IMG/VR virus record: IMGVR_UViG_3300042197_002219 | Coordinates: 1 to 51,696 of that record | Strand: one strand, 5' to 3' | DNA length: 51,696 nt | Source: a virus | Notes under the pieces: generated by a model | Told to the model about the DNA's origin: nothing | The model's input: the letters and a program-made list of their open reading frames with translations, nothing else | The model's database searches: none | Made by a program: the position numbers and the translations under genes | In this document: positions 7,393 through 49,141 of the stretch, in pieces | Numbering within the stretch: position 1 is the first letter of the stretch | Layout: each line of letters begins with the position of its first letter

Positions 7393-7414
7393 GATTGACC
7401 TCCTTGCGGCCCTG

Positions 7415-7831
7415 CTATTCCGCATAAGCCGCTATTCCCCAGTTCACCAGCGTATAATCAGATGTCGTTGACCATCGTTTTTTAAACTTAGCCAGCGCTT
7501 CCGTTATTTCGCCGTTCATTGGACAGTTGTAAATGATTTTCCTTGGTACAAATCCTTTCACCAACACATAATGATCCGTAACCAGGCACATGACAGGAGA
7601 ACCCTGCCGGACATGGTGCCTAAGCATGTTGACATCAAAATTTCCTGAAATAACTCTCAATCCTTTTTCCCTGAGAAAGCTTTCTATCGTCCTAACTTGC
7701 AAGCCATCAATTACTGAACCTAATCCCATTATTCCTCGTTTGTTCTGCTCAAGCCAATTCAAAACCATTTGGACACAAGCCACGCCACAATCACAATCCA
7801 GCCTTTGATAAATTGGCTCGATATTTAACAT
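7415..7831 (-). CDS. C39-like cysteine peptidase domain protein
   Basis: The start is the ATG at 7831 (MLNIEPIYQ), preceded by AGGAG at five bases, giving 138 residues. The layout fits a papain-like C39 fold: QRLDCDCGVACVQMVL near the N-terminus with candidate nucleophile C15, then GSPVMCLVTDHYVLVKGF with the candidate histidine, and IIYNCPMNG, where Asn/Asp usually follows. C39 domains cleave double-glycine leaders in bacteriocin exporters, and stand-alone copies occur in phages and toxin systems. Here it could process a phage protein or act on a host target. There is no signal peptide and no membrane segment. Distant family membership is likely, but activity is inferred. Confidence 0.7.
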   Translation of the reverse strand: MLNIEPIYQRLDCDCGVACVQMVLNWLEQNKRGIMGLGSVIDGLQVRTIESFLREKGLRVISGNFDVNMLRHHVRQGSPVMCLVTDHYVLVKGFVPRKIIYNCPMNGEITEALAKFKKRWSTTSDYTLVNWGIAAYAE

Positions 7832-9928: not shown

Positions 9929-11230
9929 TCAATCATTCACACCCAGGAATTGGGCTAAACCACCACCCAATTGAACCTTTGTCAAATTAGCCTCCTTAGC
10001 TAGTTTATTCAAAGTAGCAACTGGTGGTTTGAGGTCACTAATCATCGCGTAAGCTTGAAGCCCTGGCGATGACCCAATGTAAACGCCACGATGCACAACA
10101 CTGTTGCCGCCCTTGAGCGTCCTATTCATCTGGGTAAACCCGGCATCGAAATAATCGAGGCTCAAATTGTCCAAATGATTTTGATCGCCAACAAACAAAC
10201 AAGCGCCCTTCGTGCCTTGCTTCAAATCAACTTCAGCCAACACATTGTTGGTAAGTTGATCGCGAATAGCTGCACTAATGTCCGCAGGACTTGTCACATT
10301 CTGCAAACTGGCTGCTCCCATCACACAAATGCCATGATCCAACAATTGAGCCAATTCGCTGCGGTCAAAGGTAATCAAAGGACTGTGAACGGCAGCCAAT
10401 TGATTAAACAAATGGAACAACTGGCTAACCGTGTTGTTGGCCACATTGTAAAGTTGCGTCATGCCAGGCCTGTAAAGCTGATTGATCCTGGCATTGTCAA
10501 TCAGAATCAAAGGACTGACTTTCAACTCAAGCAGCTTTTGGAAAGCTGTTACAGCATTACGACATACTTGCTGCCCTTCAGTAAACGAAGGAATGGAAGC
10601 AATGACTCCAACCCTAGGTTGTTTGCCTTTGCTCTCCATGTACTCGCGAGCAATTTGAATCAGCTTGCCGCTAGTACCAGAACCTGTGCCGCCACCTAAC
10701 CCAACACAAATTAATCCATAATCCATGGCATTGCCCCAAGACTTTTGGAGCAAATCCCAAATCTCTTCTTCGTGTCCATTCATGGCTTGCTCTGCAAACC
10801 TGGCATCTTTGGCAGCACCACCAAGTTGCAAAGTGTGCCGATGAATTTCTTCCGGCAAACCTTGGAAATCACTTTCAGCCGTGTTAAACAAACCAACACG
10901 ACGATACCCAATGCGATAAAAACTAGCTGCAAGCCTGGCACCACCTTGACCAGAACCAAGGAACGCCATGTTAAATGCAACATCGTAAGGGAATGTGTCA
11001 TTGATGACGACTTGCTGTGCCGCAGGTTTGTGTGCAGCAGGATTTAATGCCGCAGCAACATTTCCAATGTTTACCGCGCCAGGGACAGGAATATTCGGAG
11101 CAGCTACCGGTACAGGTGAATGCACAGGTGGAGCTAGTTCTGAACTAACTACCGGATTTGCAGGTAATCCAGATGCCTTGTTTAACGAATCATGCATTTG
11201 CTGCTCAATCGAAGACTTAGGATCAGACAT
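9929..11230 (-). CDS. Tubulin/FtsZ-superfamily GTPase
   Basis: I choose the ATG at 11230 (MSDPKSS), preceded by AAAGGAA, giving 433 residues and leaving a 77-bp leader. A start further upstream would overlap the glycan gene. Residues 1-75 are a Pro/Ala-rich disordered extension. The GTPase domain follows: LGSGQGGARLA (91-101, first nucleotide loop), NTAESD, and the tubulin signature GGGTGSGTS at 179-187, then VGVIASIPSFTEGQQV. The family forms GTP-dependent filaments. In jumbo phages such as phiKZ relatives, PhuZ centres the phage nucleus, while TubZ segregates plasmids and some phages. The long N-terminal extension and weak resemblance to PhuZ leave the class open. The C-terminus is short, without a long acidic tail. 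Confidence 0.9.
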   Translation of the reverse strand: MSDPKSSIEQQMHDSLNKASGLPANPVVSSELAPPVHSPVPVAAPNIPVPGAVNIGNVAAALNPAAHKPAAQQVVINDTFPYDVAFNMAFLGSGQGGARLAASFYRIGYRRVGLFNTAESDFQGLPEEIHRHTLQLGGAAKDARFAEQAMNGHEEEIWDLLQKSWGNAMDYGLICVGLGGGTGSGTSGKLIQIAREYMESKGKQPRVGVIASIPSFTEGQQVCRNAVTAFQKLLELKVSPLILIDNARINQLYRPGMTQLYNVANNTVSQLFHLFNQLAAVHSPLITFDRSELAQLLDHGICVMGAASLQNVTSPADISAAIRDQLTNNVLAEVDLKQGTKGACLFVGDQNHLDNLSLDYFDAGFTQMNRTLKGGNSVVHRGVYIGSSPGLQAYAMISDLKPPVATLNKLAKEANLTKVQLGGGLAQFLGVND

Positions 11231-11307
11231 GACAGTTCCTTTCTGTGGAATTGGAAAAACCTTAGTACCGCACTCACCAACGTTACGAATGCGTTCCATA
11301 CTGCAAC

Positions 11308-11871
11308 TCAAGTGACAGAAGATAAAAAAGCATCAAGTTTTTCAAACTGCTTTTGTTTAACCTCTGCGTTCGTCATTGTAAACACATTCTTGAATAATTT
11401 CAGGTGTTTGTAATATCGTTCCAAACGATGCTTTCTCAAACCTTTCACATAATCTGGCGTTAACTCATTGTTCCAACTTTGCAAACTAGTTAAGTCTTCT
11501 TCTTCAGTTGCTTGTATGTCTATTACCGTGTCGATATGCCCTACCCACAGATTTAAAAACGCAGTCATGTGTAGACTGCAAACAATTGCTGGTTTATCGA
11601 ATTTGGCTAAAAATTCAGCAGGACCTGGATAAGGCAAATCAAAGAACTCAGGTAACGAGTCACTCCAAACGCTGACATTGTTTTGTTCGCAGAAATTGTA
11701 AATCAAATTCAAGACTTCAATGTTTTGACCATTTGAATTTAATAACCTGCGTCCGTCAAAAATATCTACGTCTTGTTTTAGCCAAACTATTGACCAATTT
11801 TTTCCATGTAAGTGCCGAGAAACATAATTAAAATAGGCACCATCAGTTCCAGCAATTAAGACATGTTTCAT
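11308..11871 (-). CDS. Hypothetical protein in glycan gene cluster, 187 aa
   Basis: The protein begins MKHVLIAGTDGAYFNYVSRHL, which resembles the first strand and loop of a Rossmann-like nucleotide or sugar-binding domain. It continues as an alpha/beta protein with a basic C-terminal helix rich in Lys and Tyr. No catalytic motif is recognised. Its ATG overlaps the TGA of the DUF616-like gene, so it is translationally coupled to it. A role in sugar precursor handling or transfer is inferred only from this position. Confidence 0.7.
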   Translation of the reverse strand: MKHVLIAGTDGAYFNYVSRHLHGKNWSIVWLKQDVDIFDGRRLLNSNGQNIEVLNLIYNFCEQNNVSVWSDSLPEFFDLPYPGPAEFLAKFDKPAIVCSLHMTAFLNLWVGHIDTVIDIQATEEEDLTSLQSWNNELTPDYVKGLRKHRLERYYKHLKLFKNVFTMTNAEVKQKQFEKLDAFLSSVT

Positions 11872-38388: not shown

Positions 38389-40497
38389 CTAGCTTCTGGT
38401 AATTTCAATCACCTGGTCAAATGTTTCTTTAAATTCATGCACATGCGTAATTACAACTAATTGCTTATCTCCGACTTTCTGTGCTAATGCCTGTAATGCG
38501 TTATGAAAATAATTCAAGTTATCCGCATCAAGCCCAGCAGTAGGTTCATCGAGGAAAAGCATACCCGTATCACAACCAAAAACACGATCTAGTGCAGACC
38601 GAAAAGCAACCGCAAGTATTACCTTTTGACCGCCACTTAATTGTTTGGCTTTGACGGGTTCTTGTCCTGGTAATATTACTTTTAAAGTCAAATCAACATC
38701 AGCTTCAACTTGAAAAGGATGATTGAACAAAGCAAGATTTGCATTGATATCAGTTATCAACAATTCTAAATTAGCTTGGGCTACGGTTTTAGGTAAATTA
38801 GACCAATGAAATATTTCTGAAACTTCGCGCACAACAGAAGTTAAATTCTGGATTTTAACTTGTTTTGCCAATCTGGCTTTAAGCGTATGCAGCATTTCAA
38901 CAGTTTTGTCGTAAAGGTCTTTTGACGCTTTATATGCACCTACGGCTCTTTGTTTAGCTAATTTTGCTTCTTCATGTGTTTGCAATGCTTCAACGGCAGC
39001 GTCGTAACTTAATTTAGATGGCTTATTCCTAGCGTCTGTTTGATACTTTGCAATCAATCCTTTAATTGTTTCAATTTCGCCTTCAAACTTATTTATCTTG
39101 GCCTGGCAACTGCTGTGTTCTTTTGTCAAATCGTTAATTTGATTTTGAGCTTGTTTATTTTTACTCAAAATTCTTTCAGCTTCTTCCTTATCTCCCGAAC
39201 CAAATGGAACTAGAGCGCTGTCTAACGACTCGATCAGTTTATTGGCATCGTCTAAAATCTTTTGAAAACCTTCTTCTTTCTTTTTGTAAAGTTCTGATTT
39301 TTCATCAAATTTTTTAGAGTAATCTAAAATTTGTTCTAATGGTGCAAGTTTTTCCCGGTTAACTTTAAGCTCAGCTAAAACCTTATCTCGATATTCTTCA
39401 GCAAGAATTTGCCCGCAGTGCGGACAATTCTCTTGATTTAATTCCAAGCTTTGCGCTTGTTTTACAAGTAGGCGAAGTTCTCCAATAGTTTCAATTAATT
39501 TATCTCGCTTCGATTTAGGACAATATTTGCTTTCGTCTTTAATTACAGGCTCTAGATTCTGTAACCCTGCCTCTGCTCGTCGTTTTGCCACCAATGCAGC
39601 ATTCTTTAATCCAGCCTGGCGTTCATATTCGGTGTAAGCGTCCAAAAGTTTTTGAGCCGTGTTTATTTTTGATTTGTTATTAGTTTGCCAGTCCACTCTT
39701 TTCTTGATGCGCGTCTCAATCTCAACTAATTGTTTATCGTTTTCAGCAACCTGATTTTTGACTTGCGTGAATTTTATTTTCCACAAATCCAATGATATTT
39801 CAGCAGTATTAGCAAATTCCATATTGTGTATGACAGTTTGCTGTTCTTGTTTCTGCTCTGGCGACAACATCGCGGCTTTGGCATTTTGTATTTCAAGCTT
39901 ATATGCTTCTAACAATTTTTCTTGATCTGCTAATGTTTCTGTCAATTCAAGACTGTTATCAATAACCTGTACAGTTTCTTGTCTTGTCGCAAAATCATTA
40001 CATACTTTGTACGCCTGAGAAACTGCCTCAGTACCGCAAAGGTATTGAAATGTCTTTGCCCTTTCAACAGCAGACTGATCTATAAAGCTAAACATTTCCC
40101 ATTGATTAACAAATACATATTTATCAACTATTATTTTTGGAATGTTTAGTTGGTTAATAATCGCTTCATTTACATCGGTTGCTTTGCTGTAGTTTACAGT
40201 ACCAAGCGTAAACTCACTTTTATTTGGCCTAAGCCAACGAGTCAATTCGAACAACTGCCCCGCATGTCTTCCGTTTATTTTTATGTAACTATGATCTGTC
40301 GTGCCATTGGTTATTATGTCAGCTTTAGCGTTTCCAAACCTAGAAAAATCATTTGTCAAAGCAGCGTAAATCGAATTTACTAAAGTTGATTTACCCGCCC
40401 CGTTGCTACCAATTAACCCAATCAATCCTTGCGCAAAATTTACACTAAGCTGTTTATGTGGCCCGATATTTTTAAGTTCAACCTTATCTATTCGCAT
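38389..40497 (-). CDS. sbcC: SbcC/Rad50-like nuclease ATPase subunit (gp46-like)
   Basis: The start is the ATG at 40497 (MRIDKVELKN), behind GAGGT, giving 702 residues. Walker A GSNGAGKST lies near residue 35. Two coiled-coil arms flank the zinc hook ENCPHCGQIL in the middle. The C-terminal part has the ABC signature LSGGQKVILAVAFRSALD, Walker B MLFLDEPTAGLD, and a His-switch region (VVITHVHEF). With SbcD it forms the Mre11/Rad50-type complex that resects DNA ends, T4 gp46/gp47 being the phage example. It overlaps the methyltransferase-like gene by 10 bp. Confidence 0.95.
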   Translation of the reverse strand: MRIDKVELKNIGPHKQLSVNFAQGLIGLIGSNGAGKSTLVNSIYAALTNDFSRFGNAKADIITNGTTDHSYIKINGRHAGQLFELTRWLRPNKSEFTLGTVNYSKATDVNEAIINQLNIPKIIVDKYVFVNQWEMFSFIDQSAVERAKTFQYLCGTEAVSQAYKVCNDFATRQETVQVIDNSLELTETLADQEKLLEAYKLEIQNAKAAMLSPEQKQEQQTVIHNMEFANTAEISLDLWKIKFTQVKNQVAENDKQLVEIETRIKKRVDWQTNNKSKINTAQKLLDAYTEYERQAGLKNAALVAKRRAEAGLQNLEPVIKDESKYCPKSKRDKLIETIGELRLLVKQAQSLELNQENCPHCGQILAEEYRDKVLAELKVNREKLAPLEQILDYSKKFDEKSELYKKKEEGFQKILDDANKLIESLDSALVPFGSGDKEEAERILSKNKQAQNQINDLTKEHSSCQAKINKFEGEIETIKGLIAKYQTDARNKPSKLSYDAAVEALQTHEEAKLAKQRAVGAYKASKDLYDKTVEMLHTLKARLAKQVKIQNLTSVVREVSEIFHWSNLPKTVAQANLELLITDINANLALFNHPFQVEADVDLTLKVILPGQEPVKAKQLSGGQKVILAVAFRSALDRVFGCDTGMLFLDEPTAGLDADNLNYFHNALQALAQKVGDKQLVVITHVHEFKETFDQVIEITRS

Positions 40498-41174
40498 ACA
40501 AACCTCACCACGACTTCCCACTCCGCAACAATTGGTTTTTTAAATGTGATTGCCGGTTTTTTTCCAAACTTTGGATTATAAGCAGTGATATCCACCGGAG
40601 TGTCTAGTGGAACAACTCGCTTATCTTCCGTGCTTTGAATGTAGCCTGCCGGTTTTATTACTAAGTCAAACTTACGGTCTTGAGTTTTTTCCCATTCCTT
40701 TATTGATTGAACACAATCATTTACCAGCCAATGTGATGAATGCCCAATCCAATTTGTCCAAGTGAACCGCAAACCTATTTTTCTTAAAACACCTTCTCCT
40801 GTCATCTCATCTTGCTCAAAAGATGGCAGCCTAAACCAAGCTAAAGTTTGCGTGTTGGTTAATGAGACTTTGACTAATTTGTTAGACCAAGATTTATCTG
40901 GAAGATGTTCAAGAAAATGCCAGGCTAAATAAACCTGGCTTTTAGGTAATTGATTGATTCCTTCAATTGTCGCAAGATTTGCAATTTCAAATTGAAATCC
41001 TTTTGCTGTAACGTCGTTTCTGTATTTCTCTCCTTCTGCTCGTTCAAACCCAACACACTTTGCAGGCTTTAAATTTTTAACAAACTCTGAACTAATTTGA
41101 GTTTTACCTGCTTGTTTTAAAAAAACTGCAATGGCATTTCCGTGTTTTGTACCGAGATCAACCACGTCAAACAT
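40488..41174 (-). CDS. Methyltransferase-like protein between sbcD and sbcC, 228 aa
   Basis: The N-terminal half has a class I SAM-binding layout: MFDVVDLGTKHGNAIAVF as first strand and glycine loop (weaker than the usual GxGxG), FVKNLKPAKCVGFERAEG as the second-strand acidic end, and QVYLAWHFLEHLPD, typical of the motif after strand 4. The C-terminal half is Trp-rich and beta-like. Activity is uncertain because the loop is incomplete. It is locked between sbcD (8-bp overlap) and sbcC (10-bp overlap), so it is translated with both. Possible roles are methylation of DNA at processed ends, or an accessory structural subunit. Neither is shown. Confidence 0.75.
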   Translation of the reverse strand: MFDVVDLGTKHGNAIAVFLKQAGKTQISSEFVKNLKPAKCVGFERAEGEKYRNDVTAKGFQFEIANLATIEGINQLPKSQVYLAWHFLEHLPDKSWSNKLVKVSLTNTQTLAWFRLPSFEQDEMTGEGVLRKIGLRFTWTNWIGHSSHWLVNDCVQSIKEWEKTQDRKFDLVIKPAGYIQSTEDKRVVPLDTPVDITAYNPKFGKKPAITFKKPIVAEWEVVVRFVCE

Positions 41175-42279
41175 TTGTTTTTTCCTCGATCCAACGCTTT
41201 AGTGCTTGTTCAGCGTCAGGTGCAGTAAGCATAGTCAATGCCAAGCTGTAAACCAACGGATTGTTTTCTTTGATTACAAAAGTTTCCAGGCAACTCAACA
41301 AATCCACTTTGTTATTTCCTGCTTTACTTAAGACTTGCTCTTCTTTTTCAAAACTGGTGCCTAAAGGTTTAAAAAACAAATGCAAAGTTTCAGAAAACTT
41401 TTCGTTAATCTTAGCAATAAGATCAGCATCTGCTTGAGAATAAATAACTTGTAAAATTGGTTTTTGTAATTCTGCTGGTAGCTTTTTATTTTGCTCTGCA
41501 CCAAGTTCAATTAAATTTGCAATCTTGTTTTCAATCTGTTTTATTGTGGCACCTTTTTCTAATGTCAATTTAAATAACTGCCTTGTTCGTAACGCCAGAT
41601 TGCGTACAGGTTGTTTTTGTTCTAAATCTAACAAAAATATTTCTTTTTCAACAGGTTCCGACAAACTGCGTAGATGCGTGCTTCCTGGGCTTAAAATAAT
41701 TAAATCCGTTGATTCACGACTTTGTTTTGCAACAATGTGTTCATGGTAATCTCCGGTAATTAAATATTTAACGTTATTTGGAACATCAGCAAAACTACCT
41801 TGCGGTTTTGCGTGTTCGCCCATGAACTCAAGCCAAACTTGATGACAGACAAGAATGTCAGCCGCTTTAGCTTGTGGCGATTGCAAAAACTCTTTTAACT
41901 TTTCTTCATTCTGATAATCACAACCAACTAAATTCCAACCGTAAAAATCTACAACATTGTTATGCAGCCAAGTAACATTGTCTGTAGGATTGATCAGCAT
42001 CCAAGGACTAATTTGATACTCATGTTGACCTTGGTTGAAGTATACAGGTATTCCTGCTTCATTAAGCGTTTTAAGTCCTTTCAACAATTGCTGTATCGGC
42101 CGCGACAAATTTACTTGCTTGTCTAAGATATCTCCAGCCAAAACCAAACCATTGACTTTTTGAGCCACAGCAATTTCAACAATTTGTTTCCAAGAATAGT
42201 AACTATCCCCTTCAATGGGCTTGTGCTTCCAAATCCTGTCGCTTAAATGTAAGTCGCTAGCAATTAACAATCGAGCCAT
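41167..42279 (-). CDS. sbcD: SbcD/Mre11-like nuclease subunit (gp47-like)
   Basis: The start is the ATG at 42279 (MARLLIASDLHLSD), with AAAGGAA upstream. A longer frame to 42393 would overlap the plus-strand gene. The 370 residues contain the metallophosphoesterase motifs in order: ASDLHLSD, LVLAGDILDK, FNQGQHEY (GNHD-type), VCHQVW, and LITGDYHEHIV (GHxH-type). These bind two metal ions for endo/exonuclease activity. The C-terminal half is the capping or SbcC-binding domain. Its start codon is separated by only 13 bases from the start of a divergent gene. Confidence 0.93.
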   Translation of the reverse strand: MARLLIASDLHLSDRIWKHKPIEGDSYYSWKQIVEIAVAQKVNGLVLAGDILDKQVNLSRPIQQLLKGLKTLNEAGIPVYFNQGQHEYQISPWMLINPTDNVTWLHNNVVDFYGWNLVGCDYQNEEKLKEFLQSPQAKAADILVCHQVWLEFMGEHAKPQGSFADVPNNVKYLITGDYHEHIVAKQSRESTDLIILSPGSTHLRSLSEPVEKEIFLLDLEQKQPVRNLALRTRQLFKLTLEKGATIKQIENKIANLIELGAEQNKKLPAELQKPILQVIYSQADADLIAKINEKFSETLHLFFKPLGTSFEKEEQVLSKAGNNKVDLLSCLETFVIKENNPLVYSLALTMLTAPDAEQALKRWIEEKTNV

Positions 42280-42292
42280 TGGAGTTCCTTTC

Positions 42293-42682
42293 ATGCCTGC
42301 ACAACCAATTGCAATGCCTATTTGCGAATTGTGTGACCGGCTGACAATTGCCAAATTGAAATTAATGCGTTTACCTGAAAATGAAATCGACAAAACATTA
42401 TTGCAAAAACAAATTGATTATTACGAAACAGGGTTAGATGACAATGTCCAAGAGCTAAAAAAAATGATCAGTGATTTATTTGAAATAAACGGAAAAATGT
42501 GGGACGCCGAATACGCAATCAGAAAAGGATTAGACGAAGATTTAGGTTTAGAAGAAATTGGCAAAAGAGCTTTAATCATCAGAGATTTAAATCGTGAACG
42601 CGTGGCCATCAAGAATCAAATAACCAGGTTGGCCCAACAACCTGAATTCCTTGATTGCAAGATGAACCACGCGTCCAGTTAA
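42293..42682 (+). CDS. Plus-strand small helical protein, DUF6165-like
   Basis: This is the only confident plus-strand gene. The ATG at 42293 (MPAQPIAMPICEL) has GGAG eight bases upstream. It encodes 129 residues. The region ICELCDRLTIAKLKLMRLP followed by charged helices and GLEEIGKRALIIRDLNRERVAIKNQI resembles the short DUF6165-type pattern (E-L-x-D-x-x-T-I-x-x-x-K), a family of helical proteins of unknown role. The family link is tentative. It ends five bases before the stop of the convergent gene at 42688. Its ribosome site falls in the 13-base gap to sbcD, and any promoter must lie inside sbcD. A weak candidate is TTGTGC/TAAATG at 42221-42249. Confidence 0.8.
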   Translation: MPAQPIAMPICELCDRLTIAKLKLMRLPENEIDKTLLQKQIDYYETGLDDNVQELKKMISDLFEINGKMWDAEYAIRKGLDEDLGLEEIGKRALIIRDLNRERVAIKNQITRLAQQPEFLDCKMNHASS

Positions 42683-42988: not shown

Positions 42989-43552
42989 TCATTCCTCTTC
43001 TTCGTTAAAAAGATTGTCAAAATCAATTTGATTATCGTTATTTTGTTCTTCGTCATCTTCTTCGGATTCGAACGAAGATTTAACTTCGTTAAAAGCTTTC
43101 TTGAGCATTCGCATAAACTGTTTGCGTGACTTCTTCATCATCTCTGCTTGCTTTGCCTCGCGATGCTCGTAATCAAGAAAAGCAATGCTCAGCAAAAGGC
43201 TAGCTGCTTTGACAATTTGAATTCGATGAAACACGCAAACATCTGAATTCCAATCAGACTCTTCCTCGTAATTGCGAACAATATCGTCATACCTTTCACG
43301 AATGCTCCGAAGAGCTTGCCAGGACATAAACATGTCTGGAACAGCCAAATTTACATAACGCTCTGATGATTTAGAAGTCGGTTCAGGTCCCAACTCTGCC
43401 ACAAACGGTTCATTTGGTGCATTCATTCTTTCTGCATTTTCATTTGCCCACTCTCGGTGATCTGCAACCCACCGATATAGCTCTCGCAAATTGTTAAAAA
43501 GGTTAATCGGATTGCAACTATTCTTTGGAAACGGAGGACTATTAATTTCCAC
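42989..43552 (-). CDS. Hypothetical protein with acidic C-terminus, 187 aa
   Basis: The gene uses a GTG at 43552 behind GGGAG. The protein is helical, with ELYRWVADHREWANENAERM and FHRIQIVKAASLLLSIAFLDYEHREAKQAEMM, then a long acidic tail of Glu, Asp and Asn (SFESEEDDEEQNNDNQIDFDNL). It overlaps the zinc-ribbon gene by 11 bp. The pattern of an N-terminal helical domain and acidic tail is common in small phage proteins. No family is recognised. Confidence 0.7.
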   Translation of the reverse strand: MEINSPPFPKNSCNPINLFNNLRELYRWVADHREWANENAERMNAPNEPFVAELGPEPTSKSSERYVNLAVPDMFMSWQALRSIRERYDDIVRNYEEESDWNSDVCVFHRIQIVKAASLLLSIAFLDYEHREAKQAEMMKKSRKQFMRMLKKAFNEVKSSFESEEDDEEQNNDNQIDFDNLFNEEEE

Positions 43553-44300
43553 GAGTATCTCCCTTGTACTTGTTTATCTTCATAAGTTTACGCTTCTTAA
43601 AATCATCCATAAGTTTTACAAACTTATCTGTATTTGTTTTAGAAAACAAATTCAACCAAGGCAAACGAGAAGCAAAAACAATTGCCTTGTGTATACCAAT
43701 ACTATTAGCTTCATTTTCAACATGAAATGACAAATTTAATTTGTCAATTAAATTTTCATGTTGACAGTCACGGTCAATTACTTGAACTCCCATATGTTGT
43801 AATTGCAAATTGTTATTTTCATCAACAAAAGGCAGTAACGCTTGTACGGTAGCATGAGCCCTCATCATTTGATGAGGACCATATGTTTTACTAAAATTTG
43901 TTATTGTTTTTTCTTCATAAGCTAATATTCGTTTCCAGCTTAAAACTTTACTTGTCGTTCGTTTTTCTGCGCTAATGTTATTTAGCGCAATATAGGCTGG
44001 ATGCAACCTTCTTCTTACAAAACAAAAGGGACAGATTTTTGGATTATTACATGAGCGCATCCTGTTATTAGCTCTGAAACCACAAGGAGGACAATTTGCT
44101 GCGTAAGTTAAATCAAGTTTATTTTTTTCGCAATCCATGACATTTATTAATTGTTGTCTATACATTTTTTGTATTTTTTTACATGATTTTGTAATAGGGT
44201 TATTTACGCCAAATTGCCATAAAACACTATAACGCAATAAATTAAATTCTGGATTTTGACCAATAAATTTTATGCTGTGATTTACAAAACCTTTAGTCAT
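43542..44300 (-). CDS. Zinc-ribbon protein, 252 aa
   Basis: The protein has 252 residues. Near residues 68-93 a cysteine set reads CPPCGFR, then SCNNPKICPFCFVRRR, giving two CxxC pairs and a further Cys, a probable zinc ribbon for nucleic acid binding. The rest is helical and basic. No HUH motif is seen, so a rolling-circle Rep is not supported. Its start lies in the repeated 3' region shared by the FGE genes: the preceding spacer is nearly identical to that between the two FGE genes. The function is unknown. Confidence 0.7.
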   Translation of the reverse strand: MTKGFVNHSIKFIGQNPEFNLLRYSVLWQFGVNNPITKSCKKIQKMYRQQLINVMDCEKNKLDLTYAANCPPCGFRANNRMRSCNNPKICPFCFVRRRLHPAYIALNNISAEKRTTSKVLSWKRILAYEEKTITNFSKTYGPHQMMRAHATVQALLPFVDENNNLQLQHMGVQVIDRDCQHENLIDKLNLSFHVENEANSIGIHKAIVFASRLPWLNLFSKTNTDKFVKLMDDFKKRKLMKINKYKGDTRGN

Positions 44301-44343
44301 AACTAATTCTCATGTGTTTAAAACTATACGGAATCCGATGTTG
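44301..44343 (-). repeat. Repeat copy 1: FGE gene 3' end plus spacer
   Basis: On the minus strand the last codons of FGE protein A, the stop and the spacer up to the next start match copy 2 (near 45036-45079) at 38 of about 43 aligned bases. Similarity drops sharply upstream of the CATCGG that encodes the start of IGFRI. Confidence 0.75.
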
Positions 44344-45035
44344 AAATGGCAATTGCGTTGATTGCTTACTTCTCGACAAGCGGACCGACAGAACTTGGAG
44401 TTGCCGAACCAACACCCGCCCCGTATCACCCGATACAAACCATTTTTTGGACCTTGTGGATCTGTAACACTTGTAACTGAATATGAGTTATACCGGTCCG
44501 AACACCACTCGTACACATTACCGTGCATGTCGTGAAGGCCCCAGGCGTTGGCCGGATAACTTCCCACGGCACTGGTCTTTTTCAAATCCGGCCCCTTAGT
44601 GGTGGTTCCATATGGCTTGGTCCCATCGCAGTTGGCCTGGGTGCCGTTAAGTTCCGTGCCAAAATGAAACGGCGTTGTCGTTCCAGCCCGACAAGCGTAC
44701 TCCCACTCGGCTTCCGTGGGCAGACGAATATTTTGTTTTGTTTTTCTCGTTAAATTTGCACAAAACTCCATCGCATCTTTACAACCCACCCGTTCCACCG
44801 GCAGTCGGGCTCCCCTGAAATAGCTTGAGTTGTTGACCATCACCGCTTGCCATTCCTCTTGGGTAACCGGGTATTTCCCCATGTAGAACGGTTTCGAGAT
44901 CGTCACTTCATGAAGGATTTCGTCCGACTCTCTACCTTGCTCCGTTGCCGGACTGCCCATCATAAAAGTGCCAGGCTCAATCCTTACAAACTCCATTTCA
45001 AGATCGTAACCAGCTTCAGTAAAATCTATAATCAT
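44310..45035 (-). CDS. FGE-sulfatase-fold protein A
   Basis: The 241-residue protein has the formylglycine-generating-enzyme fold: FVRIEPGTFMMGSPATEQG at the N-terminus, VTISKPFYMGKYPVTQEEWQAVM, RLPTEAEWEYACRAGT, NAWGLHDMHGNVYEWCSDRY, and the ending VIRGGCWFGNS...IGFRIVLNT. True FGEs oxidise a Cys in sulfatases, but most phage and bacterial relatives are scaffolds, including targets of diversity-generating retroelements. The catalytic Cys pair at the C-terminus is not clearly in place. The coding sequence is visibly richer in G and C than its neighbours, especially at 44500-44950, suggesting recent transfer. It lies nine bases downstream of a second FGE gene. Confidence 0.9.
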   Translation of the reverse strand: MIIDFTEAGYDLEMEFVRIEPGTFMMGSPATEQGRESDEILHEVTISKPFYMGKYPVTQEEWQAVMVNNSSYFRGARLPVERVGCKDAMEFCANLTRKTKQNIRLPTEAEWEYACRAGTTTPFHFGTELNGTQANCDGTKPYGTTTKGPDLKKTSAVGSYPANAWGLHDMHGNVYEWCSDRYNSYSVTSVTDPQGPKNGLYRVIRGGCWFGNSKFCRSACREVSNQRNCHFNIGFRIVLNT

Positions 45036-45079
45036 AGTTAACTCTCATGTGTTTAAAACTATGCGGAAACCGATGAACT
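45036..45079 (-). repeat. Repeat copy 2: FGE gene 3' end plus spacer
   Basis: This is the second copy of the 3'-end repeat, covering the end of FGE protein B and the spacer to FGE protein A. The central TAGTTTTAAACACATGAGA is identical in both copies. Confidence 0.75.
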
Positions 45080-45887
45080 TATCTGTTTCTCTAAACTGCA
45101 TAAAACTTCGAGTCACCGCGTTGCAAAAACTAGGCTGCAAAATACAACAACCGCCTCTTACCACTTTGTATGCATGAGTGGTTTCAACAATTGGGTCTAT
45201 TAAAGGAGTTTGAACATTAGTAACTAAAAATGAATCTGCACAATATTCAGAAACATTTCCTAACATATCGTGCAATCCCCAATCATTCGGAATTTTTTGT
45301 CCAACAGGTTTAACCATGCAACCCGCTTGTTTGCACAGTTGTGCTTGGACTACTGTAGCAATAGGTTTTTGCATAATTTCTTTAACTGTTAAAGGATTAT
45401 CGCTACTATTGAAACAAGACCAGATGTAGTCGTTAAACGAATCTTCATTGCAAGGATAAATATCAGGTTTACCTGCGCGACATGTGTATTCCCACTGCGC
45501 TTCAGTAGGCAATTTAATCTGCATATCGTGTTGCGCTTTACTTAATTCATGCGTCAAAAGCGCACAGAATTGACAAGCTTCTTCCCACGTAACATTTGTT
45601 TTAGGATGGTTTTCACGGTTTCCAAGATCAGGCACATGCCCTAAAAATTGATTATTAACATTACTGCTGTACCAAGACCCGCTCCGCAGCACCCGCTCAA
45701 ATTGTTTTTCTGTTATAGGATATTTTGATAGCCAAAAAGATTTTGTAATAGTGACTTGGCGAGGCTGTCCGGTAAATCTAACGCTATCGTGCTTAATGCT
45801 AGTTCCCATTTCAAATTGACCTGGAGGTATTTCTACAAAATCAATTGACAATTCTAAATTTTCAAAAAATAAAGTTTTTTCTTTCAT
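45045..45887 (-). CDS. FGE-sulfatase-fold protein B
   Basis: I set the start at the ATG at 45887 (MKEKTLFFENL), behind GGAG and just after the terminator. A much longer frame upstream reads as non-coding. The 280 residues have the same fold: DFVEIPPGQFEMGTSI, VTITKSFWLSKYPITEKQFERV, KLPTEAQWEYTCRAGK, NDWGLHDMLGNVSEYCADSF, and the end VVRGGCCILQPSFCNAV...IGFRIVLNT. It is AT-richer and more diverged from typical FGE than protein A. The two proteins end in identical residues and share the DNA around the stop, while the bodies differ, so they are paralogues or a modular pair. Confidence 0.9.
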   Translation of the reverse strand: MKEKTLFFENLELSIDFVEIPPGQFEMGTSIKHDSVRFTGQPRQVTITKSFWLSKYPITEKQFERVLRSGSWYSSNVNNQFLGHVPDLGNRENHPKTNVTWEEACQFCALLTHELSKAQHDMQIKLPTEAQWEYTCRAGKPDIYPCNEDSFNDYIWSCFNSSDNPLTVKEIMQKPIATVVQAQLCKQAGCMVKPVGQKIPNDWGLHDMLGNVSEYCADSFLVTNVQTPLIDPIVETTHAYKVVRGGCCILQPSFCNAVTRSFMQFRETDKFIGFRIVLNT

Positions 45888-46392: not shown

Positions 46393-47514
46393 TTAAAAAA
46401 TGTATCTAATTTCACAATACGGAAGCATGCGTTCAAGCATCTCCCGTAAATCTTCACAACCGGCGCTCTTGTAATTATTCTTGTAACGCAAATTGACCAT
46501 GCCGTTTTGGCTAATCTTGCGTTGCTGAATAACCTCAAGACCAAACCGATTGGTCTTTTTGTTTGATTCGTCATCCCAGTGCCGCCAAAGATATTTTTTT
46601 TCAGCTTGCGGATGCCACTGCATATTGAGTTCATGCAGCTTCTCGTTGTGCGTGAGGAATATAACCTCCGCTTTTAATTGCTTCTTTGCCCGTGGACTCA
46701 AAGCATCGTCGATTTGCGTAAACAAATCCATGTAATCATCTTCCCACCCGTCGTAAATAATAACAGGTGACAAGTTGATATGGACTTCGTATCCGGCGTC
46801 AACAAAATCGTTGATCGCCGCAATTCTTTCAGGAATTGGAGAAGTTCTGACATCAACAACCTTAGCAACATGCGCAGGCATCAAGCTAAACCTGATGCGT
46901 GTCTTATGTTGCGGATCGTATGTCAGTAATTCTCGATTTACAAACTTGGTGGCGAAACTTGCCTTGGCGTTTGGAATACGCCGAAACAAATGCACCAAAT
47001 CTTTTACATTGTCGGATACGGCTGCGTCCACAGAGCAGTCGTTGTTCTCGCCAATGTCCCATGTCCAATAAATTGGATCAGTTTGAGCATTCTCAGGCGT
47101 CAATACTTTTGGCCCAAGGCGCTCACATTTTCTTTCTATATGTGCTAATACTTTTGTTATAGTAGCAAACACAGTTATCGGATTGGCATAACCTTTACGT
47201 CTAGAAACATAGCAGTATGCGCAAGCCATACCACAGCCTGAACTATGGCTCGGTGCAATCCAGTCCGTTGATCTATCGTTTGGTCGGCTTGCGATAGCCG
47301 TCTTAACGCCAAGGACCAAGTAGTGAGCCTTGACGTGATTCCATTTAGTTGCCAATTCCGGATTTTGATTGAGTTCTTCAATTTTCCAATGAGAATCAAC
47401 CTCAATCTTTTTGGCGTTGGAATACTTGTTGAAAATGACCCGGCCGCGTTCAAAGTTGAGCGCGGCCGGGTCGTAGTACATCGTGTCAATATCAAGCAAT
47501 TCAGTTATTTTCAT
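46393..47514 (-). CDS. Radical SAM protein, spore-photoproduct-lyase-like
   Basis: The 373-residue protein has the motif CGMACAYC at C94, C98 and C101 (CxxxCxxC), the [4Fe-4S] ligands of radical SAM enzymes, placed in HSSGCGMACAYCYVSRRKGY, close to the spore photoproduct lyase context. Further features are TDPIYWTWDIGENNDCSVDA, ASFATKFVNREL, RIRFSLMPAHVAKVVDVRTSPIPERI and VHINLSPVIIYDGW, typical of the SPL partial barrel. SPL repairs a UV thymine dimer using SAM. Close relatives in phages have unknown substrates. The usual C-terminal catalytic Cys of SPL is not obvious to me: several Cys occur near the end. The ribosome site is AAGGAAAA. Confidence 0.9.
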   Translation of the reverse strand: MKITELLDIDTMYYDPAALNFERGRVIFNKYSNAKKIEVDSHWKIEELNQNPELATKWNHVKAHYLVLGVKTAIASRPNDRSTDWIAPSHSSGCGMACAYCYVSRRKGYANPITVFATITKVLAHIERKCERLGPKVLTPENAQTDPIYWTWDIGENNDCSVDAAVSDNVKDLVHLFRRIPNAKASFATKFVNRELLTYDPQHKTRIRFSLMPAHVAKVVDVRTSPIPERIAAINDFVDAGYEVHINLSPVIIYDGWEDDYMDLFTQIDDALSPRAKKQLKAEVIFLTHNEKLHELNMQWHPQAEKKYLWRHWDDESNKKTNRFGLEVIQQRKISQNGMVNLRYKNNYKSAGCEDLREMLERMLPYCEIRYIF

Positions 47515-48250: not shown

Positions 48251-48609
48251 ACTTGCACCTCTACTTCTTTTACAAGGTCCTTAGCCTTGCCCATCCAGGG
48301 GCAAGGCTTGATTGTTGAAAACCAATCTTTTATTGACGGGATAAAACCCAAATCTTCAACAACATGTTTTTCGGCAATCCAACGCACAGGGATTTTGCGC
48401 CCGGTTGAGATTGTGATGGTGTGATCCGCTCCACCGAAAAGTTTTTCGGCTTCGTAAATGCCCTGCGAATGGTGACGCAAGGCACGGTGCCTAAAATCAC
48501 CAAAGTGTTCTTTCGACGCGTCAAACCAATCATGGATTGGTAAGTAATCTTCAACTGTTCCTCCCCACGCTTTGACACTACTCAAAGCGTGGTGGTAAGG
48601 ATTAGCCAT
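48247..48609 (-). CDS. DUF6915 family protein
   Basis: The 120-residue protein matches the DUF6915 pattern closely: MANPYHHALSSVKAWGG, DYLPIHDWFDASKEHF, FRHRALRHHSQGIYEAEKLFG, PVRWIAEKHVVEDLGFIPSI and DWFSTIKPCPWM. The family occurs in phages, prophages and bacteria and has no assigned role. Conserved His residues suggest metal binding, which is an inference. It overlaps the next gene downstream by 4 bp and starts inside the repeat-bearing end of the gene upstream. Confidence 0.9.
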   Translation of the reverse strand: MANPYHHALSSVKAWGGTVEDYLPIHDWFDASKEHFGDFRHRALRHHSQGIYEAEKLFGGADHTITISTGRKIPVRWIAEKHVVEDLGFIPSIKDWFSTIKPCPWMGKAKDLVKEVEVQV

Positions 48610-49141
48610 TATCCTGTTCTCCTTCTCCTATTTGTGCATTATCCTGTTCTCCTTCTCCTATTTGTGAAAGAGTTGGATTAAAATCAGACAAATCGGTTTC
48701 ATTTTCATACGTTTCAACCGCGATGATGTTGATGCTTATTTCTAAAAATATTTTTTTATCTATTAAATTCAAAGTAATTTTACCTTGAGAACCGTCGTTA
48801 ATTTCCCAACCCTCGTGATGCGTTTCAAGCATGGTATAAGCAACACGTTCTGCCGCTTCTTCTAAAGTTAAATCTTTTGTTTTAAGAATTGGAACCCACC
48901 CGGTTGTATTATTCCATGTGAGTCCTTCTAAAATAGTTGTATTGTCAAGCCTAACAGCCGGACAGATTGAATTTTCGGAACCAGGTTTTTCGTATTCTTC
49001 ATTTTTATCGTTAAAAAATTCTATATCTTCTATTTGTCCGCAGTCTCCACTACCGTTAAAATCAAGAGTAATTTTTGTAATATTTGTATTTTTGCAAACT
49101 TCACAAAGTCTATAAAATATAACTTTTGTATGCAAGTCCAT
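48602..49141 (-). CDS. Hypothetical protein with duplicated C-terminal acidic repeat, 179 aa
   Basis: The ATG at 49141 follows AAAGGAA. The body is alpha/beta with NTNITKITLDFNGSGDCGQIEDIEFF, ICPAVRLDNTTILEGLTWN, and EEAAERVAYTMLETHHEGWEIN. The last 20 residues are two copies of an IGEGEQDN-type block, encoded by a nearly perfect 30-bp direct repeat at 48608-48667. The overlap with DUF6915 lies inside the repeat. No family is recognised. Confidence 0.75.
   Translation of the reverse strand: MDLHTKVIFYRLCEVCKNTNITKITLDFNGSGDCGQIEDIEFFNDKNEEYEKPGSENSICPAVRLDNTTILEGLTWNNTTGWVPILKTKDLTLEEAAERVAYTMLETHHEGWEINDGSQGKITLNLIDKKIFLEISINIIAVETYENETDLSDFNPTLSQIGEGEQDNAQIGEGEQDNG
48608..48667 (-). repeat. 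30-bp direct duplication at a gene end
   Basis: Two adjacent 30-bp copies (48608-48637 and 48638-48667) differ by one terminal base. They encode a duplicated ten-residue tail and also move a ribosome-like AGGAGAACAGG next to the DUF6915 start. Confidence 0.9.

Follow-up and report, generated by a model that had tools for sequence, protein, structure and literature searches.

A 55-bp repeat at the 3' ends of two tandem FGE-domain phage genes, a probable scar of the capture of a bacterial gene body

Two adjacent phage genes that encode FGE-sulfatase-domain proteins, FGE1 and FGE2, share a nearly identical 3' end, which is probably the recombination scar of a bacterial FGE gene body captured between FGE2 and the conserved phage gene ORF252. 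The genes lie in a virus record of IMG/VR that is 51,696 bases long, was analysed over its whole length and is referred to here as the window; its credible genes are almost without exception encoded on the minus strand. There, FGE2 (45045–45887, 280 amino acids) is followed by FGE1 (44310–45035, 241 amino acids), ORF252 (43542–44300) and ORF187 (42989–43552). A first-pass annotation made from the sequence had recognized tandem FGE-fold genes at this position, and a Pfam profile search agrees: both proteins belong to PF03781, with 171.6 bits (E = 3e-50) for FGE1 and 137.9 bits (E = 6e-40) for FGE2, far above the curated cut-off of 23.3 bits, and no further PF03781 match was found elsewhere in the record. 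No Pfam or PHROG family was found for ORF252. ORF187, also conserved, displays 54–63% identity in eight related contigs and was used as a marker for the orthologous locus.

A repeat search revealed that the shared end is a direct repeat of 55 bp, with one copy at 45021–45075 and the other at 44286–44340, 47 of the 55 positions being identical and the 3' ends being in register. Each copy spans the codons for IGFRIVLNT (approximately the last 27 coding bases), the stop codon, the spacer and the ATG of the next gene with about 12 further nucleotides, so that the first copy joins the end of FGE2 to the beginning of FGE1 and the second joins the end of FGE1 to the beginning of ORF252. Because the repeat reaches into the following gene, FGE1 is flanked by it on both sides. 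The repeat core, ATCGGWTTCCGYATAGTTTTAAACACATGAGA, is found at exactly two places in the window and at none in 100 shuffled versions. The near-identity of tail, stop and spacer described in the first-pass annotation is thus confirmed, in a repeat longer than it had reported, and its statement that the preceding region differs completely holds broadly, since 50 of 87 bases differ from RGG to the end of GFR and the only remaining similarity is the generic FGE motif. The shared tail had no exact match in IMG/VR, and the locus as a nucleotide query had none in phage records. Both copies extend over the start of the gene that follows, as would be expected if selection had retained the segment, or put it to use again, as an intergenic signal for ribosome binding and translation start, in the manner of a cassette border; yet it is present at only two places in the window and its coding part consists of near-identical codons, which a start signal does not need, making this reading highly improbable.

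The base composition of the locus changes abruptly inside FGE1. A GC change-point fit delimited a block at 44372–44978, corresponding to the interior of the gene, with 52% GC inside compared with 34% outside; its log-likelihood ratio of 29.0, against a best value of 19.1 elsewhere in the record (from a coarser scan), makes it the strongest compositional step. The repeat falls in the AT-rich part, and the spacer, FGE2 (35–39% GC, a phage-like composition) and ORF252 are AT-rich as well. FGE1 therefore looks chimeric, with a foreign body, which we interpret as imported from a bacterial FGE gene, and phage-like ends. Two AT-rich patches were observed in the body, at gene nucleotides 240–300 (GC3 0.30) and 540–600 (GC3 0.15), and the foreign segment is consequently not uniform, as might be seen in a gene that is itself a mosaic or that has become partly adapted to the phage.

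The nearest homologues of FGE1 are bacterial FGE-domain proteins, with identities of up to 57%, while FGE2 displays only 24–29% identity to FGE genes in phage records and no relatives of it were found in IMG/VR; FGE1 is thus no recent copy of FGE2, and the pairwise identities point to the two genes falling apart in a tree. These values bear directly on the alternative offered in the first-pass annotation, a gene duplication with conversion of the end, which comes closer to the data than a retroelement but fails in treating FGE1 as a duplicate of FGE2, which it is not. In its full form, a tandem duplication followed by divergence, with gene conversion keeping the two ends alike, it would account for the tandem placement, for the membership of both genes in one family and for a common end that reaches into the spacer. 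It is nonetheless unlikely, since no match found for FGE2 comes near the closeness of FGE1 to bacterial FGEs, since the GC content of FGE1 departs from that of the adjoining sequence by some 14 points, and since the conversion of just 45–55 nt or so at one end would be left unexplained.

Capture of a foreign body is further indicated by the corresponding site in related phages. A search with the DNA polymerase led to two related contigs, L094 (record G042, 69%) and L095 (record G043, 64%), both syntenic with the window for the greater part of their length; in G042, ORF252 and ORF187 are present and FGE genes are absent. A profile of ORF187 identified G042 and seven further contigs; three of the eight are of 157–179 kb, and ORF252 lies immediately before ORF187 in each of the eight. 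No PF03781 match was found at the ORF252 site in any of the eight; six are devoid of any match, and G044 and G047 each have one weak, partial match below the cut-off, located elsewhere. The empty site is known from relatives with just 32–39% identity in ORF252, and searches of IMG/VR with ORF252 alone and with the primase found no relatives. The eight contigs represent four distinct ORF252 start sequences (haplotypes), in which 8–17 codons precede the conserved KGxVxH motif of ORF252; in the window this stretch is reduced to the ATG and one codon. The N-terminus is accordingly 7–16 codons longer in the four haplotypes that lack an FGE gene at the site, a MAFFT alignment independently places a gap of 12 residues at this point, and on these sequence comparisons ORF252 of the window, which now starts inside the second repeat copy, is judged to have lost its original head.

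The first eight codons of FGE1 (MIIDFTEA, 45012–45035) may be that head, displaced. Among 1060 minus-strand ATGs, the start context of FGE1 is the best match to the ORF252 start of G042, with 20 of 29 positions identical and 16 for the next best, a lead that becomes small with gapped local scoring (15 against 14). The similarity was not seen with three more distant relatives, and for this reason the proposal, which draws on one relative, G042, is kept conditional in what follows.

The capture that we favour would have started from an arrangement in which FGE2 lay directly upstream of ORF252. The body of a bacterial FGE gene would have been inserted between the two, with the 3' join inside the GFR codons, where donor and FGE2 have a few bases in common, and the tail of FGE2, comprising approximately the last nine codons, the stop codon, the spacer with its ribosome-binding site and the start codon, would have been copied after the join. 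The copied tail would thereby have supplied FGE1 with its stop codon and ORF252, shortened at its 5' end, with a new ATG and ribosome-binding site, while the old head of ORF252 would possibly have become the first codons of FGE1. Copying may have occurred by template switching or by short-homology recombination, which would leave the same trace here, and we infer that it ran from FGE2 to FGE1, with the reverse direction also conceivable. The eight differences between the 55-bp copies imply that it was not very recent. A compositional island, foreign best relatives and absence from the syntenic site in relatives are the marks of horizontal, moron-like acquisition, and the locus is a case of ordinary phage mosaicism with an instructive junction. 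If both the insertion and the displaced head are correct, the intact ORF252 start in near relatives should read ATGATTAT(A/G)GAT... The locus would then be a readable case of how a phage gains a gene in a tight operon while the next gene survives, the copied tail supplying both a stop and a new start.

A different origin for the shared end was also considered. Diversity-generating retroelements (DGRs) require a reverse transcriptase (RT) and a pair of sequences, the template repeat (TR) and the variable region (VR); the VR matches the TR almost completely, and the mismatches are overwhelmingly at TR adenines (PMC8144416). In phages, DGR targets also carry a GC-rich hairpin 4–34 bp downstream of the VR (PMC3240598). 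The first-pass annotation had likened the two genes to such targets, had pointed out that neither an RT nor a TR is present in the window, and had proposed a search of the complete genome. The absence of both from the window stands, the RT after a search of the record and the TR after an adenine-tolerant ungapped scan, and related contigs were equally empty: no RT was detected in nine related phage contigs of up to 178,753 bp, among them the eight above, where the RVT_1 profile gave no match, and none was found in eleven viral contigs carrying relatives of FGE1. An adenine-tolerant template pattern derived from FGE1 gave six matches in IMG/VR, all of them poly-A. The kind of scan used for the window, applied to bacterial FGE loci, recovered a TR for each of 12 VRs, distributed over seven loci (L083, L024, L057, L038, L055, L056 and L016), with mismatches almost only at adenines and with seven of the 12 VRs free of any non-adenine mismatch; since it recovers real TRs, the TR scan has power. 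The lack of an RT in the 51.7-kb record is itself weak evidence, because the record is a fragment of a genome of probably 160–180 kb.

The fragmentary record leaves room for one DGR, with its RT and TR outside the fragment, that targets both genes and for which the shared end is a constant (IMH-like) element. The fold and the C-terminal position of the VR are those of DGR targets (Pfam PF03781; alignment to DGR targets), and the homologues of FGE1 include genuine ones. Nevertheless, 26 of the 87 positions differ between the genes with adenine in neither, which is impossible for copies of a single TR; the regions of FGE1 and FGE2 do not derive from one TR, and the single-TR form of this explanation is already refuted. 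Moreover, the FGE2 region (RGG...GFR, 45063–45158) is without the codon signature of DGR targets, only 10 of its 18 codons ending in C or T (NNY; p = 0.46), the related contigs have no RT, and no GC-rich hairpin lies within 80 nt of either tail; the sole stem in the 111 nt after FGE1 is of 5 bp and AT-rich (TTAGT, loop TATG), and there is none after FGE2. The shared segment also crosses the stop codon and the start of the next gene. To our knowledge, DGR homing does not copy past a stop codon and spacer into a following gene. On these grounds a DGR was rejected as the source of the shared 3' end, the earlier reading of the tail as a DGR constant element was not upheld, and a single retroelement acting on both genes is hardly credible. 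FGE-fold genes with a common constant 3' end are not in themselves evidence for a DGR.

The likeness to DGR targets has substance at the level of the FGE1 family, where it extends to the closest, bacterial homologues, several of which are DGR targets by the TR test described above, and not to the shared 3' end. The RGG...GFR region of FGE1 (44328–44423) is homologous to the VRs of these bacterial proteins and aligns to DGR VRs without gaps; in 139 alignments to FGE1 relatives it has a mean identity of 26%, compared with 49% in the body, and C or T is the last base in 14 of its 18 codons (uncorrected p = 0.009). FGE1 alone might therefore be, or recently have been, a DGR target, a captured variable protein on which no RT now acts, or one encoded elsewhere in the phage or host, with the tail incidental. 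We regard this as rather improbable, given a window without a TR, a search of IMG/VR that returned poly-A only, related contigs without an RT and a fossil adenine bias against foreign TRs that is not significant (p 0.06–0.46), in a test that a control with genuine DGR VRs against foreign TRs showed to be weak. The RGG...GFR stretch is thus a favoured DGR target in this family, and none of the results identifies FGE1 itself as one.

An extension of the capture model, very unlikely as it stands, is that the phage took up a bacterial DGR target that was pre-diversified, or that is still diversifiable without an RT of its own, and that can be swapped by means of the 55-bp repeats. The captured binding protein might then be mutated in trans by a host DGR, and the repeats would permit clean excision or exchange, turning the gene into a swappable binding-protein cassette. 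The DGR-target ancestry of the captured body offers a lead in this direction, namely that phages may take variable proteins from their hosts without the machinery. As a separate observation, the viral contigs L003, L004, L005 and L013 contain FGE genes in which the RGG...GFR stretch varies between contigs in a DGR-like manner (for example SWYFDARFCRSAFR and SWDYRARYCRSASR); an RT was not found in these contigs.

Several other features of the record were observed. The gene at 9929–11311 (minus strand) encodes a Tubulin/FtsZ-family protein (Pfam Tubulin, E = 1.6e-10) with 71% identity to its counterpart in G043; phages of this group accordingly carry a tubulin-like cytoskeletal protein of their own. 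The product of 46393–47514 (minus strand), a gene located upstream of FGE2 and FGE1, matches spore photoproduct lyase (PF20903, E = 1.8e-34), which is a DNA-repair enzyme of the radical SAM type and for which no match was found in the two relatives compared (G042 and G043). An SMC/Rad50-like ATPase (38389–40521, minus strand) and, close to it at 41167–42393, a probable phosphoesterase-like ORF without a Pfam match together resemble an SbcCD/gp46–gp47 pair (38389–42393, minus strand). Tandem repeats are present at 2310–2525, where a 36-bp unit occurs in several near-identical copies, and at 48607–48666, where two perfect 30-bp copies (IGEGEQDNAQIGEGEQDNG) lie at a gene end.

The FGE/C-type-lectin fold is common to many proteins other than DGR targets, and FGE1 and FGE2 are probably non-catalytic binding proteins of this fold, a role suggested by family membership. 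The closest complete system for comparison is the bacterial DGR of Nitrosomonas sp. Nm51 (L038, 2985–8510), which served as a positive control and has the order FGE, accessory ORF, RT with a YMDD motif, TR (at about 7397–7483, spelling RGGSWNNNGRNVRSANRNRNSPDKRNNNLGFR) and FGE. FGE1 is homologous to its target over nearly the whole length (46%), and the C-terminal region of FGE1 corresponds to the stretch that this DGR diversifies; the phage locus differs in lacking an RT, a TR, a hairpin after the gene and an adenine signature, and FGE2 has no codon signature either. Among solved structures, the best sequence matches of FGE1 are PvdO (PDB entry 5hha), followed by Treponema denticola TvpA (PDB entry 2y3c), a DGR variable protein. 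The FGE subtype of the CLec fold is also that of Thermus aquaticus TaqVP (PMC6328139); the phage locus has no diversification machinery.

Among phages, the large Microcystis phages LMM01 and MaMV-DC contain FGE-domain genes annotated as 'kinase' or hypothetical, with 42% identity to FGE1 and about 27% to FGE2; the recombinase of the window matched no phage record, and these phages are thus not close kin. The nearest parallels to the junction itself are phage mosaicism at short conserved boundary sequences (PMC3029335) and the PeSL cassettes of T4-type phages (cited in PMC4503421). The present repeat differs from both in being a gene's own 3' end and spacer, in having two copies only and in that a stem-loop was not found, and it resembles them in that a short repeat at a gene border accompanies the gain of a gene and could mediate its loss.
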